Below the pieces are notes generated by a model, which saw only the letters and a list, made by a program, of their open reading frames with translations, made no database searches and was not told where the DNA came from. DNA of 26,129 nt from a virus: IMG/VR virus record IMGVR_UViG_3300034060_000040, positions 1 to 26,129 of that record, one strand, 5' to 3'. A program made the translations under genes and the position numbers. This document shows, one piece after another, positions 3,332 to 26,129 of this stretch (the first letter of the stretch is position 1; each line of letters opens with the position of its first letter).

Positions 3332-4014
3332 TAGATTGCTCCTACTCTTGATCGAATATCGTGCATACCCGCAAGCCCGTACACGGAATCATCTTCCGGG
3401 TGCAGGTTCACGACGTTATCGTAGTCATGTGTGAAAGGTTCCCAGTCGCAGAACTCGTAGATGCGAGCAACCTGCGAACTAGGATCAGAAATTAAATCAG
3501 CGTACTCCACAAAAAGGAACTCGCCACTATTAGATGCCTTCGCTATCTCCACACCCATCAGGGAACGCATGATCGGTTCCGATTCAGGGTCAAGGAGTCC
3601 AGCCTTCGGGTCACCCTCCCACCCGTTAGCGGAGCGGAGCCGTGCGAACGATTCCACGATCTCATCAACGGGACGAGTCAGAACAATCACCTTCGGCTCG
3701 TCCGTGATGTACCTGCGGATCATGTTCATGTTCGCTGGCAGGGTCCACGACCGGCACTTGTCAACAATGTGCGTTGACCGAACATCCCGGTAGTAGATCG
3801 CAGGGATCGAACCGACTAGCGCGTCCTGATCCGTGTAGCGACGGTTAGCGACTAACTGTTGAGCCGCTCCACCTTCACAGGACTGCTGCATGTCCCACAT
3901 CAGTTGACACACCGCACTGTTTCCTTCGGCATGAATCTCAGGATTCTGCGACAGGATCGCCGAGAGCAGGGTTGAGCCCGTGCGCGGGAGGCCCGACAGG
4001 GCGACGAACGTCAC
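3331..4014 (-). CDS. PAPS-dependent sulfotransferase
   Basis: The 227-aa product has the sulfotransferase 5'-phosphosulfate loop GLPRTGSTLL at residues 8-17 and the 3'-phosphate-binding segment VIVLTRPVDEIVESFARLR at 109-127, followed by a late FVEYADLISDPSSQVARIYEF block typical of the family. It should move sulfate from PAPS to a hydroxyl or tyrosine acceptor. The acceptor cannot be read from the sequence; virion fibers or a host surface glycan are possible. The GTG start overlaps the Gly-rich fiber stop (GTGA). The region is much more GC-rich than its flanks (39 of 60 bases at 3601-3660, against 24 of 60 at 2341-2400), suggesting separate acquisition. Confidence 0.85.
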   Translation of the reverse strand: MTFVALSGLPRTGSTLLSAILSQNPEIHAEGNSAVCQLMWDMQQSCEGGAAQQLVANRRYTDQDALVGSIPAIYYRDVRSTHIVDKCRSWTLPANMNMIRRYITDEPKVIVLTRPVDEIVESFARLRSANGWEGDPKAGLLDPESEPIMRSLMGVEIAKASNSGEFLFVEYADLISDPSSQVARIYEFCDWEPFTHDYDNVVNLHPEDDSVYGLAGMHDIRSRVGAI

Positions 4015-5588
4015 GCCGTTCTCGAACGCACAATGACAACTCCTGAGCCGCCGCTTGAGCCGATTCCGTTGTCGTTGCGGCCACCGCCGCCGCCACCGGT
4101 ATTTGCCGTGCCAGCAGCGGGAGCGGTGTTGAAGGTGCCAGCCGCTCCGCCACCGGATCCGGCTGCGCCACCGCCCGCACTGCCACCACCGCCACCACCG
4201 CCGGCATAGGTCACAGAAGCGCCGGTTTTGGTCGACGCTGCGCCTGCGCCTCCTGCCCCGCCAACGTTGCCTGCGGTTCCGTTGCCGCCGGTCGCTCCTG
4301 CGCCGCCTCCGCCCCCGCCGATGTAAGTGCCGCCGCCGCCTCGGTTGCCGCCAGTGTTGCCGATGTTTGTGGTTCCAGCACCGCCATTAGTCCAACCGCC
4401 GCCGCCTGAGCCACCAATCTGCCCGTTGAACCCACCGCCGGATCCGCCGCCTGAGGCAAGTAGCCCAGCTGAATAGATCTGGCTGCTAGTGCCGGTGGTT
4501 GAGGTTGCGCCGCCGCCACCGACCACAACGGAAAGTGATCCTGCGGGGAGGTACATGCTTGACCGCTCAAGAAACCCACCACCGCCGCCGCCACCACCGC
4601 CGCCGCCGCCCCCGCCCCCGACAATCAGCACGTCAGCGAAACCAGCACGCTGCACAGTAAGAGTCCCATTACCCGTAAACGTGTAATAGTTAAACGTTGC
4701 TGAACCTTCCGTGTACGTACCAGTAGCAGTGTTAGTTACTACCGCTCCACCCGCTGCAACACTTACGGGGCGTGCAACACGAACAATGACAACACCAGAA
4801 CCGCCAGCAGCGCCGTTTCCACTTCCATCGAAAGCGCCACCACCACCGCCACCAGTATTAACTGTGCCAGCGGTTGCTCCGGTACTAACTGCACCAGTTC
4901 CTCCACCACCCGCTCCGCCTGCTCCTCCTGTGACAACTCCACCGCCCCCGCCGCCACCAGCACGGGTTACAGATGATCCAGTGTAAGAGTTTGCGAGACC
5001 AGCGCCGCCTGCTCCGCCCACGTTGGATACGGAAGGCGCAAACCCAACCGCACCGGCACCACCGCCACCACCGCCGTCATTTGCTGCGCCTGTACCACCA
5101 GCATTGCCTTGTCCAGTTGCCCCAGTATTACCGGCTCGGCTTTGTGAGCCACCACCACCGCTGCCGCCCGACGATGCGACACCGTTTGTAGTATCTCCTC
5201 GGCCCCCTCCAAGGGCATAGAAACCACCTATCAGGCTAGTGTTGCCATTAGCGTTTGCCGCTTGCGAAGAGTTGTTTGCACTACCTCCTGCACCAACGGT
5301 TACAGTCAAGGTTCCAGCAGCAAGGTAGGCGTTTGTTAATGACAAGTGGCCACCAGCGCCGCCACCGCCGCCCCTGAAGTGACCACCAGCGCCGCCCCCG
5401 CCAACGACAAGCACATCCGCATACCCAGCAGTCACCACACTCAGCGACGAGTTACCCGTAAACGTCCAATAATCAAACGTCACACCACCCTCAGTGTAAT
5501 TACCAGTAGGTGTGGTCGTGATCGTTGCACCACCGATACGGGACGGGGTGTTGAAACCTTGAATGGTGGAAAGTTTATTGATCGACAT
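4011..5588 (-). CDS. Glycine-rich fiber/adhesin with two repeat modules
   Basis: The 525-aa product has two copies of one module. Each opens with a TGxYTEGxxTFxYxTFTGNxxL beta-type head (about residues 28-50 and 290-312), continues with an AGxADVLxVGGGG turn, then a long Gly/Ala/Asn low-complexity body, and closes with SGVVIVR. Such Gly-rich domains occur in phage tail fibers and adhesins. The second copy includes about 15 glycines in a row near residue 325. The second half uses mainly GGC codons while the first uses more GGT/GGA, so the C-terminal module looks recently acquired or recombined. The ATG overlaps the upstream stop (TAATG). Receptor binding is inferred. Confidence 0.7.
   Translation of the reverse strand: MSINKLSTIQGFNTPSRIGGATITTTPTGNYTEGGVTFDYWTFTGNSSLSVVTAGYADVLVVGGGGAGGHFRGGGGGAGGHLSLTNAYLAAGTLTVTVGAGGSANNSSQAANANGNTSLIGGFYALGGGRGDTTNGVASSGGSGGGGSQSRAGNTGATGQGNAGGTGAANDGGGGGGAGAVGFAPSVSNVGGAGGAGLANSYTGSSVTRAGGGGGGGVVTGGAGGAGGGGTGAVSTGATAGTVNTGGGGGGAFDGSGNGAAGGSGVVIVRVARPVSVAAGGAVVTNTATGTYTEGSATFNYYTFTGNGTLTVQRAGFADVLIVGGGGGGGGGGGGGGGFLERSSMYLPAGSLSVVVGGGGATSTTGTSSQIYSAGLLASGGGSGGGFNGQIGGSGGGGWTNGGAGTTNIGNTGGNRGGGGTYIGGGGGGAGATGGNGTAGNVGGAGGAGAASTKTGASVTYAGGGGGGGSAGGGAAGSGGGAAGTFNTAPAAGTANTGGGGGGRNDNGIGSSGGSGVVIVRSRTA
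4575..4620. repeat. GGC/CCG simple repeat inside the Gly-rich fiber gene
   Basis: This is a run of CCG/CCA/CCC triplets on the plus strand, coding for about 15 consecutive glycines on the minus strand. The near-uniform triplet run could change length by slippage in steps of one residue. Confidence 0.7.
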
Positions 5589-6433
5589 TAGACAGCCACC
5601 CTAACTATTACGACACCGCTACCACCCGAACCAGAAGTACCGTTGAAAGTTCCCCCGCCACCGCCACCCGTATTGGCTGTGCCAGCCGTACCATTGGCGC
5701 TAGTCCCAGCGCCACCAGCGCCACCGCCGCCTGCTCCACCGGACCCTGCAACTGTCCATCCTTGACCACCACCGCCACCAGCGCGAGTAACAGAAGTCCC
5801 TGTTATCGAGTTGGCGGTACCAGCACCACCAGCACCGCCCGTAGTTCCAGAACCATTACTACCAGCCGCCGAGTGACCGCCCCCGCCACCGCCAGCGCCT
5901 TGCGTTCCGCCAGTTCCAGCGCCGCCATCTTTCCCAAGTACTGTCAGTGCGTTCCCATCACCACCAGCACTACCGCCACCCCAGTTCAACGCTTGCGGAA
6001 TAGACGCGGAAGAATAACTTGAGCCTTGACCACCGCCACCGGCAACAATAAGAACACCACTAATACGAGAATGACCACCACCGCTCAACGTGGTAGAAAC
6101 TGTTGAGAATCCATTCTGCCCTGCTCCGACAGTAACTGTGTAAGTGCCAGCAGGTATGTAAAAATTAGGCATATATAAGTAGCCACCGGCTCCACCACCG
6201 CCGCCATTTACGTTATTTGCATCACTACACCCACCAGCACCTCCACCGCCAATGACGAGAGCATCAAATAAGCCTGCCTTCGTCACCGTCAACGTCCCAT
6301 TACCAGTGAACGTCAGGTACTTGTAGTTCACGCCACCATCGGTGTAAGTACCCGTAGGGGAACCGCTGAAGTCAGCGGCAGAAGGCGAGGTGACCCTCGC
6401 TAACCCTGCACGCTTGAATGAACTAACAGCCAT
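5588..6433 (-). CDS. Glycine-rich fiber/adhesin, one repeat module
   Basis: The 281-aa product is a single copy of the module found twice in the next gene: TGTYTDGGVNYKYLTFTGNG (about residues 27-46), then AGLFDALVIGGGGAGG, a Gly-rich body and a closing GSGVVIVRVAV. The N-terminal 20 residues are not Gly-rich and could be the attachment end. The two genes are tandem paralogs. A surface or receptor-binding fiber role is inferred from composition and place. Confidence 0.7.
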   Translation of the reverse strand: MAVSSFKRAGLARVTSPSAADFSGSPTGTYTDGGVNYKYLTFTGNGTLTVTKAGLFDALVIGGGGAGGCSDANNVNGGGGGAGGYLYMPNFYIPAGTYTVTVGAGQNGFSTVSTTLSGGGHSRISGVLIVAGGGGQGSSYSSASIPQALNWGGGSAGGDGNALTVLGKDGGAGTGGTQGAGGGGGGHSAAGSNGSGTTGGAGGAGTANSITGTSVTRAGGGGGQGWTVAGSGGAGGGGAGGAGTSANGTAGTANTGGGGGGTFNGTSGSGGSGVVIVRVAV

Positions 6434-23173: not shown

Positions 23174-25057
23174 TCACGCCCCTATAGGGGTCCATGCTTT
23201 TTGTGCTTCCATGTCGGCAAGATTAATTGTGTGCTGTTGTTTACGGTCCCAACCAGTAAGGAATGGGTTCTTCACATGCGTACGGTAGTTACTATTTAAG
23301 GTGATACGGTCACGGCACGCCAGTTCAGCGAACCATAGGGCCATCACAATGTCCGTCTTCTGGCTCTTACCGGCATTGGGTGACCATGTAACCAGTTGCT
23401 CAATCATGCTCTTGCACGATTCCTGCCCGTGGGTGGAGGGCAACTCAATCAAATGGTTGCCATCCTCGTAGCCATTGAACAGGGTCGTCATGGACGACAC
23501 ACCAAAGTCCGTGTCATGCTTATTGGCACCAGTAAAGTGGGGCCGAATCACCGTACCCCTGCCAGCGCAGTAGTCGTTGATCTCCCTATCGTGCACCAAG
23601 AAGCCCTGAAAGCCGTTACGTTCGATACGCCACTCACTGATACCGTACTTATCGGTCCAGTTCTTGATCACTTCACGCATAGCATCAGGGGTAATACCGG
23701 ACTTGTTGTACACATCCAGTACATAACGCTTATTAGACTGAATGTCTAGTCCGATAACCACGGCAGCGGTATGTCCAGTGGTAGCAGGGTCCAGTCCAGC
23801 GACCACAATCAGGCCATCCATGCCATTCTCACGGCAGTTCACCATGCCACGGGGCATGATTCCGGCCATACGGTTACCATTAATAGTGGCACGCACCGCA
23901 TCAGGGTGGAAGATAGTATCCTCAGAGACCTGTTGCTGCTGGTACACCATAGCCCAAGCACGCGGAGAAACCCGTCTGCGCTTCTGTGAGAGCCTAGGAC
24001 CGTCCCACTTAGGGAAGTAACCATTAGCATCTGCGGTCTGTGTGTCCTGCTTAGAGCCCGGTTCGGGCTGATTGGACTTAGGCCACAGTGTTACCCAGTT
24101 CTTAGGGTCATCAGCGAAGTCCAGAACCGCTGGCATCGACAGGTATGACCACGGTGATTCCTCATCTGGGTACCTACCGGGGTCTCTTAACTCCCTATAC
24201 AGGTCCTTAGAGGCAAGCCTCGTACCCACAACCAGCATAGAACCAGAGGCAGAGACACGGGAGATAACCTCAGACTGCAACCAGTCGATCTGCTTCTCGT
24301 ACTCATGGGCGTTAGTAAGGTCCACGCAGTCATCAAGGAGGATCAGATCGGCACGGGCACCATAGATGTGGCCCCTAATACCCAGAGCCTGCACGGTAGG
24401 GTCCTTCTCACCAGAGTCCCTAGCATTATCAGAGACATAGATCATCGTCTGGTTCCACGCCTCAGAGTCCTTGTCAAAGCCACCCATAGGGGCGTACTTG
24501 CCAATCATCTCGTCATACTTCGGGTGGGTCAGCCGGGTCTTGATAGCGTACAGCATCTTCTTAGCCATCTCAGCCGTCTTAGAGACGATGATGACACGGA
24601 TGTTAGGGTCCATACAGATGCGGTAGACCACATAGTTGATCGTGATGGAGGTCGTCTTGGCGTGCTCTGGTGGCATGTTCACCATAACCAGATCGCGCTC
24701 ACCCTTCTCAAAGACCATCGACGGGTGTACCCACACGGGGTCACGGCCCTCAATCAAGTCCACCACATTCATCATGTGAGGGAAGACTTTAGCGTCCAGA
24801 TACTTCTCAGAGAACTCAGGGAAAGGAAGTACTTCCCTCTCCTGTGGGCCAGCGGCCACACGCAGATGCTTGATCCGCTCCACAGCGGAGACAAACTCAG
24901 GGTCCTCCCTGCGCCATCTCTCATAAGTAGACCTATTACGATCCACCGCCGTCAGAGCCTGATTGATATTCAAGCCCCGCTGCATGTGCCTCAAGAAGTC
25001 CGTCTTCGCCGTAGCGATATCGGAACCGGCCTTACGCCCTGCTCCCGCCACAGTCAC
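23174..25057 (-). CDS. Terminase large subunit with N-terminal HTH
   Basis: This is a 627-aa packaging motor. Walker A is MPPEHAKTT at 128-136, Walker B DLILLDD at 237-243, a LVVGTR motif at 275-280, and the nuclease domain opens with GLDPATTGHTAA at 421-432 (Asp423). Residues about 27-55 (GLNINQALTAVDRNRSTYER and WRREDPEF) form a helix-turn-helix like that of small terminases, suggesting the subunit reads the packaging site itself. No separate small terminase is seen in the window. The start is GTG at 25057, but GTG at 25051 has AGGGAG at a better distance. A tiny basic gene lies upstream. Confidence 0.9.
   Translation of the reverse strand: MTVAGAGRKAGSDIATAKTDFLRHMQRGLNINQALTAVDRNRSTYERWRREDPEFVSAVERIKHLRVAAGPQEREVLPFPEFSEKYLDAKVFPHMMNVVDLIEGRDPVWVHPSMVFEKGERDLVMVNMPPEHAKTTSITINYVVYRICMDPNIRVIIVSKTAEMAKKMLYAIKTRLTHPKYDEMIGKYAPMGGFDKDSEAWNQTMIYVSDNARDSGEKDPTVQALGIRGHIYGARADLILLDDCVDLTNAHEYEKQIDWLQSEVISRVSASGSMLVVGTRLASKDLYRELRDPGRYPDEESPWSYLSMPAVLDFADDPKNWVTLWPKSNQPEPGSKQDTQTADANGYFPKWDGPRLSQKRRRVSPRAWAMVYQQQQVSEDTIFHPDAVRATINGNRMAGIMPRGMVNCRENGMDGLIVVAGLDPATTGHTAAVVIGLDIQSNKRYVLDVYNKSGITPDAMREVIKNWTDKYGISEWRIERNGFQGFLVHDREINDYCAGRGTVIRPHFTGANKHDTDFGVSSMTTLFNGYEDGNHLIELPSTHGQESCKSMIEQLVTWSPNAGKSQKTDIVMALWFAELACRDRITLNSNYRTHVKNPFLTGWDRKQQHTINLADMEAQKAWTPIGA
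23179..23190. other. Perfect CCCC-TATA-GGGG palindrome at the terminase-portal junction
   Basis: A 12-bp perfect palindrome overlaps the last codons of terminase (T-P-I-G), 16 bases before the portal start. It could form an mRNA hairpin between the two genes, or be a coincidence of codons. Confidence 0.35.
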
Positions 25058-25081
25058 TCCCTACTTCTTCTTAATGGTCCC

Positions 25082-25243
25082 TCAGAACCGGGGGCCGTAA
25101 GATCGCATCGTATCCTTGTACTGCTTTGCCGGCGTCGGCTTCTTGGAGCCCTTGGCACCGGAAGTAGTTGGTCGCGGTGTATCCTTAGGACTCTTCTTTG
25201 CCGTAGTCTTAGCGGCAGGTGCAGCCTTCTTCTTAACAGCCAT
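25082..25243 (-). CDS. Tiny basic protein, 53 aa, first gene of the operon
   Basis: The product begins MAVKKKAAPAAKTTAKKSPK, is Lys/Ala/Pro/Thr-rich, and ends PAKQYKDTMRSYGPRF. It resembles the tiny basic proteins after the portal. The ATG is preceded by a weak AGGGGC site. It lies 24 bases before terminase. It is probably unstructured and DNA- or RNA-binding; a small-terminase role is conceivable only from position. Confidence 0.6.
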   Translation of the reverse strand: MAVKKKAAPAAKTTAKKSPKDTPRPTTSGAKGSKKPTPAKQYKDTMRSYGPRF

Positions 25244-25268
25244 GATTGCCCCTAAAGATTGTATATTT

Positions 25269-25282
25269 GATATTTGATCAAA
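25269..25282. repeat. Palindromic operator-like repeat, left copy
   Basis: A 14-bp sequence with the palindromic core TTTGATCAAA lies 26 bases before the first gene's ATG. It is identical to 25737-25750. It is a possible repressor or replication-protein site. It is preceded by a tandem ATATTTG repeat at 25263-25276. Confidence 0.55.
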
Positions 25283-25335
25283 AACCAGTACTAAGTTTAT
25301 ATTGCCTAGGCGAAGTGTAAATGGAGGGTACCTGA

Positions 25336-25507
25336 GGACCCGACAATGAAGGAGGGTCCGAACCAGTATAAAGAAGCCCCGGCGTTAGCAAGGGGCATAG
25401 TCCACCCCCCAGTACTTAGGTTGTAGTTAGTGACCCCAAAGGGGTCTAAAAGTAGTAGTGCCCCGAAGGGGCTAAGGTAGTATTTAGTAACGAAGCCCCT
25501 AAGGGGC
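25336..25507. repeat. Array of five GC-rich hairpins
   Basis: Five short hairpins lie in about 170 bases: GGACCC/GGGTCC (25336-25359), GCCCC/GGGGC (25376-25396), GACCCC/GGGGTC (25432-25446), GCCCC/GGGGC (25460-25472) and GCCCC/GGGGC (25495-25507). The last three have 3-base loops and are separated by AT-rich, ACTA-containing spacers. Function unknown: a structured RNA leader, tandem attenuators or a replication/packaging element are possible. Confidence 0.65.
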
Positions 25508-25650
25508 GTAGTTATTTTGTTCTCTATATAGGTATTCCTCGGAAATGACACCAGTTGTGACACCAAAAATGCCGATTTAGGCATATTGTTACCAAACTGT
25601 TACAATAGAAACGGACATATAGGTACAAAGCAGGACAATTATAGGGTGCT

Positions 25651-25700
25651 CCAGTAAATATCATGTAGGATTTTAAGGGTACTATATATATACTACCTAC
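25651..25700. other. AT-rich tract beside the DnaA boxes
   Basis: This tract contains AAATATC, ATTTTAAG and a CTATATATATACTA run between the hairpin array and the DnaA boxes. It could be the DNA-unwinding element of the proposed origin. The composition is visible; the role is inferred. Confidence 0.4.
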
Positions 25701-25736
25701 ACCCCCCTACACGCAAAGGGGTGGGTCAAGTGTAGA

Positions 25737-25750
25737 GATATTTGATCAAA
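25737..25750. repeat. Palindromic operator-like repeat, right copy
   Basis: This is the second identical 14-bp copy of the TTTGATCAAA-containing element, 20 bases from the first DnaA box. A related degenerate half (GATATGTGATC) follows at once. Confidence 0.55.
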
Positions 25751-25769
25751 GATATGTGATCTAGTTCCC

Positions 25770-25812
25770 TTGTCCACACCTTATGCACACCCTGTGGATA
25801 ACCTGTGGATGG
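25770..25812. other. Cluster of four DnaA boxes (origin-like)
   Basis: Four 9-mers lie in 43 bases: TTGTCCACA (25770-25778, +), TTATGCACA (25781-25789, +), TTATCCACA (25793-25801, -) and CCATCCACA (25804-25812, -). Two agree fully with TTATNCACA, and the first is the preferred actinobacterial DnaA box. Starts are spaced 11, 12 and 11 bases, about one helical turn, in a convergent two-plus-two layout. This strongly resembles a host-DnaA-dependent replication origin. Confidence 0.72.
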
Positions 25813-25853
25813 GGGGAGGGGGTCGAACCGACCGACCGATAGTAGACCACCAT

Positions 25854-25956
25854 ACTAGACCAGCGTTCTAGTTGTAGTTGAACGTTCAATCTCTTAACAT
25901 CAAGATACTTTACGTAAAGATACTTAACATTGAGATAGTTTAGGGGCGAGACTATC
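25854..25956. repeat. Iteron-like repeats and palindromes
   Basis: AAGATACTT occurs at 25902-25910 and 25917-25925, with a 7/9 match at 25932-25940: a strict 15-base period. TTAACAT recurs at 25894 and 25924, 30 bases apart. Around them are the palindromes TTGAACGTTCAA (25878-25889) and CTTTACGTAAAG (25908-25919) and the inverted pairs ACTAGA/TCTAGT (25854-25872) and GATAGT/ACTATC (25934-25956). They suit binding by a replication initiator or repressor. Confidence 0.55.
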
Positions 25957-25982
25957 AACGACCGACAACGGCTAACGATAAC

Positions 25983-26039
25983 GACTTTCATTACCGATAA
26001 GGATAGGTGACCTTGACTAATTGACAATGACTTTCATTA
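25983..26039. repeat. Direct repeat GACTTTCATTA
   Basis: Exact 11-base copies lie at 25983-25993 and 26029-26039, 46 bases apart, flanking the putative late promoter. A control site is possible. Confidence 0.4.
26000..26027 (-). promoter_or_regulatory. Putative late promoter
   Basis: On the minus strand TTGTCA (26022-26027) is followed after 16 bases by TATCCT (26000-26005), matching a -35 hexamer in 5 of 6 positions and the actinobacterial -10 pattern TANNNT. It points toward the late operon but is about 750 bases from the first gene. A perfect TATAAT also lies at 25638-25643 (minus) without a good -35 partner. Confidence 0.28.
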
Positions 26040-26065
26040 AGAGCCTCGCGGCTCTGTAAGCCACG
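26040..26065 (+). other. Hairpin and inverted copy of the left-end 16-mer
   Basis: AGAGCC/GGCTCT forms a 6-bp stem with a TCGC loop (26040-26055). Bases 26050-26065 are the exact reverse complement of 49-64. In the outward direction both copies read the same. No T-tract follows. Confidence 0.45.
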
Positions 26066-26083
26066 GAGAGGGCCTAGAACGTC

Positions 26084-26110
26084 GGAGGGTACTAGGTATC
26101 CAACCCCTCC
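26084..26110. other. GGAGGG/CCCTCC hairpin near the window edge
   Basis: A 6-bp inverted repeat with a 15-base loop. No gene is seen from 25244 to the window end apart from the elements listed; the role of this hairpin is unknown. Confidence 0.3.
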
Positions 26111-26129
26111 AAGTTCCGGATATCGGACA

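Follow-up and report, generated by a model that had tools for sequence, protein, structure and literature searches.

A phased DnaA-box array beside the terminase gene of an actinobacterial podophage as a candidate oriC-like origin of replication

The P1 plasmid origin and coliphage 186 are DnaA-assisted phage origins, and in many bacteria oriC itself adjoins dnaA. DnaA boxes have also been described, together with repeats and palindromes, in the T5-type injection stop signal (PMC13250531), which was the only case returned by an open-access literature search for phage DnaA-box parallels. The array discussed here lies in a virus record of 26,129 bases that is classed as linear (IMG/VR record IMGVR_UViG_3300034060_000040), the whole of which was analysed and is called the window below. 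Like P1 and 186 it belongs to a phage replicon, in this case with a putative use of host DnaA, but those two also use their own replication initiators, whereas none was detected in the relatives of the window phage.

Among the isolates of the phage collection, the closest relatives are podophages of Streptomyces that belong to the Beephvirinae, with a terminase 48% identical to that of the window. One of them, Abafar, is described as a podovirus (PMC11536984). In the terminase tree the Streptomyces phages are set apart by a branch of 2.19 changes per column, and by this and the terminase identity the window phage is of the same wider lineage as the Beephvirinae and not a member. Abafar, Zeigle, FlowerPower and Immanuel3 have a similar gene order with an annotated DnaB-like helicase and primase, no polymerase A was found in three of them, and some Beephvirinae have an annotated Holliday-junction resolvase. 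In contrast to the window, the Beephvirinae checked have no DnaA-box array upstream of the terminase and at most two exact TTRTNCACA sites per genome, so the wider group can replicate without one. WhiB, an actinobacterial marker, was present in 13 of 17 related records, from which the hosts are taken to be actinobacterial.

That the window comes from a phage, as had been supposed from its letters, is supported. Its structural genes are encoded on the minus strand, beginning with that for the terminase large subunit. Two glycine-rich open reading frames of 525 and 281 amino acids at 4011-6433, in a stretch that reaches about 64% GC and has a strong negative GC skew, probably encode tail or fibre proteins. 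As a fragment, the window lacks its early genes, and its replication gene content was inferred from kin. Among these, G002 carries a short DnaB/Sak4-like ATPase, a TOPRIM protein and a Cas4-like nuclease. Profiles for DnaA domains III/IV and for polymerases A, B and C (PF08299, PF00308, PF00476, PF07733, PF00136) gave 0 matches in 13-17 related records, with positive controls, and a phage-encoded DnaA as the binder was rejected, as none was found in the relatives searched. With neither polymerase nor DnaA detected in the relatives, borrowing of the host polymerase would be necessary and borrowing of the initiator plausible. The features of the region are as follows, in the order of their position.

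23174..25057, minus strand: terminase large subunit (PHROG 38), the anchor gene for finding relatives
25058..26129, no strand: gap of about 1.07 kb from the terminase to the contig end, holding the array
25509..25607, no strand: conserved non-coding segment, about 76-78% identical to relatives L014 and L017 when the relatives are compared, containing GTTACCAAACTGTTAC
25737..25764, no strand: a pair of neighbouring AT-rich 14-mers, GATATTTGATCAAA / GATATGTGATCTAG, separated from box 1 by 5 bp, a candidate unwinding element
25770..25778, plus strand: DnaA box 1, TTGTCCACA, actinobacterial-type, from the sequence and a box scan
25781..25789, plus strand: DnaA box 2, TTATGCACA, half of the conserved inverted pair (pair score 18/18)
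25793..25801, minus strand: DnaA box 3, TTATCCACA, the other half of the pair at a 12-bp offset
25804..25812, minus strand: weak DnaA box 4, CCATCCACA, two mismatches to TTATNCACA, in 11-bp phase
25893..25942, no strand: three AT-rich 15-bp tandem repeats on the far side of the boxes, a second candidate unwinding or binding element

The original prediction of four DnaA-type 9-mers, two forward and two reverse and spaced by 11-12 bases, was borne out by the sequence, with the qualification that the fourth box is weak; the array at 25770-25812 consists of three good boxes and this one, at start-to-start spacings of 11, 12 and 11 bp. Clustering of this kind had been called very unlikely to arise by chance, and only about one shuffle in 2000 does give such a cluster: at least three strict boxes (TTRTNCACA) within 45 nt were seen in 1 of 2000 dinucleotide-preserving shuffles of the window, and at least four loose boxes likewise in 1 of 2000. 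Across the whole window there is no excess of boxes with at most one mismatch (30 found against 37.6 expected), so that the clustering, and not the overall number of boxes, is the unusual feature.

Relatives were gathered as viral contigs through their terminase and form a large group. Of 64 regions upstream of the terminase, 17 contain at least two boxes within 60 bp and 14 at least three; among 513 downstream control chunks of 1 kb the corresponding numbers are 2 and 0. The 17 and the 14 include near-identical contigs (e.g., L018/L020, L028/L029 and L021/L022/L075). A chance cluster was rejected on the strength of the shuffles together with this enrichment over control kilobases. The commonest core in the relatives is the inverted pair TTATCCACA-3 bp-TGTGGATAA, 12 bp from start to start, which is perfect in the window (18/18). 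When all offsets from exact TTATCCACA anchors were scored, with no match required of the neighbour, the direct offsets +11 and -11 and then the inverted offset +12 came out on top. In an alignment of relatives the box columns stay conserved while the flanks diverge, and the boxes of independent arrays are of the known DnaA-box variants TTATCCACA, TTGTCCACA, TTTTCCACA and TTATGCACA. Relative to the terminase the arrays sit between about -590 and -800, the window boxes at -755 to -713, and distant terminase kin (37-46% amino acid identity) have the same three-box motif upstream of the terminase, one of them with about 11 boxes. Taken together, these observations leave us confident that the array is real, selected and DnaA-type.

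Conservation of the boxes and of their phase thus holds for many relatives, but the array is missing from close kin, as it is from those Streptomyces relatives that were checked. No array was found in 47 of the 64 upstream regions; five boxes are present in L041 but none in L040, a near relative. Mapped onto the terminase tree, the array requires eight gains or losses, at least six of them forced by well-supported branches.

The window's exact three-box arrangement was also sought in 84,980 prokaryote genomes and was found in at least 118 bacterial genome stretches. Among the matches listed, a dnaA gene lay 0-694 bp from the motif in 56 of the 118, as detected with a DnaA profile built from 25 of the 118 loci listed; this profile replaced an earlier dnaA/rpmH regular expression that was too strict (29 of 118 among the matches listed). 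Since the motif lies near dnaA, where oriC is often found, the layout of the array is one used by real origins. The matches listed were mostly from Bacillota and therefore support DnaA, not any particular host. The window shares with bacterial oriC identical 9-mers, a direct and inverted layout phased at 11/12 bp and AT-rich DNA nearby, but it has three good boxes only, on a phage and beside terminase instead of dnaA. The phage array has also been gained and lost among close relatives, unlike oriC, and its activity as an origin is putative.

About three segments of the window's 1.07-kb gap are conserved, and the box block is one of them. The two longer open reading frames of the gap, one of 88 amino acids with a TTG start that covers the boxes (25761-26027) and one of 92 amino acids (25306-25584), had no match in the relatives, compared with 94 for the terminase, so no conserved gene overlaps the boxes. 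A coding origin of the repeats was rejected on the same ground. The motif GTTACnAAAC, an element of the segment at 25509-25607, is present upstream of nine terminases. At 25878-25913 there is a perfect palindrome, TTGAACGTTCAA, followed by TCTCTTAACATCAAGATA, and this block is matched (87% over 31-39 nt) upstream of the terminase in the box-less L024, L025, L007 and L008; it is a further non-coding element that is conserved, and may act as an operator or as another site for an origin. Directly before the terminase, on the minus strand at 25082-25243, lies a small lysine/alanine-rich open reading frame of about 53 amino acids (MAVKKKAAPAAKTTAKKSPKDTPRP...), whose product looks like a small basic DNA-binding protein.

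AT-rich DNA had been placed beside the boxes. This is the case on the terminase side, where 25730-25769 has 35% GC against a window mean of 52%, and again at 25861-25960 (37%), but not directly after the boxes, where 25813-25860 is G-rich with 60% GC. TTTGATCAAA, from the pair of 14-mers at 25737..25764, was sought upstream of other terminases and not found. The AT-richest 100 bp of the whole genome falls within this gap in 7 of 10 complete or near-complete relatives, although AT-rich DNA here could be just promoter DNA. A skew switch near the array had also been looked to as a mark of an origin, and in 8 of 10 such relatives the cumulative GC-skew minimum does lie in the gap, between -401 and -743 relative to the terminase. 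This is not independent evidence, however, being confounded by gene orientation, which switches at the minimum where checked (most clearly in G025). The box-less relatives show the same minimum, and GC skew as proof of an origin was rejected because of this and its coincidence with the divergent gene boundary.

On balance we judge it probable that the array binds host DnaA; the best single explanation, somewhat more likely than not, is that it serves, wholly or in part, as an oriC-like origin of phage replication. The site would be an intergenic gap of an actinobacterial podophage, between late genes led by the terminase and divergent early genes. Host DnaA would bind the inverted core pair (TTATGCACA-3 bp-TGTGGATAA), spread along the neighbours phased at 11 bp, and open the adjoining AT-rich DNA, whereupon a phage DnaB/Sak4-like ATPase and TOPRIM primase, or a host helicase, would load a replisome built from host polymerase. 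The recruitment of host DnaA that had been suggested fits what is seen in the relatives, in which helicase- and primase-like genes are present and neither DnaA nor polymerases A, B and C were detected. Most of the checks named with the original prediction as able to refute it favour it instead, apart from the confounded skew switch. We infer binding, unwinding and origin activity from this arrangement.

The same bound DnaA might instead repress or activate the early leftward promoter (or a late one), with its timing tied to host DnaA-ATP. DnaA is a known transcription factor (review PMC8203912), the array is close upstream of the divergent early gene (which starts at -799 in G025 and at -896 in G002), and repeated gain and loss would be less surprising in a regulator than in an origin. 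Still, no conserved promoter was mapped onto the boxes, and a multi-box array in 11-bp phase with an inverted core is the layout found beside bacterial dnaA and is longer than a simple operator needs. Control of transcription seems to us unlikely, yet it is the foremost of the alternatives and a serious one.

Somewhat less likely again, though also a serious alternative, is that the array serves to mark or regulate the terminus of the phage, whether within a terminal repeat at the terminase cut or as an injection stop signal of the T5 kind bound by a host protein. The Beephvirinae bear on this from both sides: they have direct terminal repeats of 253-396 bp that begin near the corresponding position, and in those checked the left end of the repeat, at -695 to -738 from the terminase start, comes close to the window boxes, yet with the terminus at that position they have no box array. 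The stop signal resembles the window in its repeats, palindromes and DnaA boxes, and the window array is possibly near a genome end, but T5 is of a different phage family with a two-step transfer of its DNA. The likeness is a positional analogy only. When a common terminus was sought from contig ends, the end positions proved scattered, and the end overlaps of 124-127 bases in several circular contigs resemble assembly k-mers. The variation among the boxes, moreover, follows that of DnaA-box variants, and they are arranged as at bacterial loci close to dnaA.

The boxes could also be iterons of an unrecognised initiator or regulator encoded by the phage, resembling DnaA boxes by coincidence: iteron origins typically contain direct repeats in phase, and the relatives have many early genes without annotation. 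We consider this improbable, as independent arrays draw on known DnaA-box variants and the exact arrangement recurs beside bacterial dnaA. The other suggestion of the original prediction, that multiplying phage genomes soak up DnaA and so block initiation in the host, found no specific support and is very improbable: several boxes per genome would rise with phage copy number, and related loci have clusters of about 11 boxes, but a titration site could lie anywhere and needs no fixed phase, and here there are only three or four boxes in a phased array, next to AT-rich DNA, at an intergenic place common to relatives.

Strict three-box arrays were found in 80 viral contigs, which suggests that the DnaA-array device is widespread among phages and little described. 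In a collection-wide count, the two-box palindrome was found at least 120 times against 62 for its reversed control, the former being a lower bound only. A second, distant phage group (e.g., L154, L207, L549 and L593), with a terminase only about 21-23% similar, has DnaA-box clusters about 1.3-1.8 kb from the terminase, as if such arrays had been put to use by phages repeatedly.

If the array is an origin fired by host DnaA, a broader and more tentative proposal may be made, one that we regard as possible and short of probable: lytic actinobacterial podophages that have neither initiator nor polymerase would start replication at an oriC-mimicking array near the packaging end, the array would be swapped over short evolutionary times, and the type of origin would be an exchangeable module. 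Its coming and going in closely related phages provides a natural experiment for deciding whether DnaA boxes on a phage are an origin, a switch or a decoy. Were the origin reading true, replication in these mostly uncultured actinobacterial viruses would be coupled directly to the master initiator of the host, and the array would allow their origins to be predicted from sequence alone.
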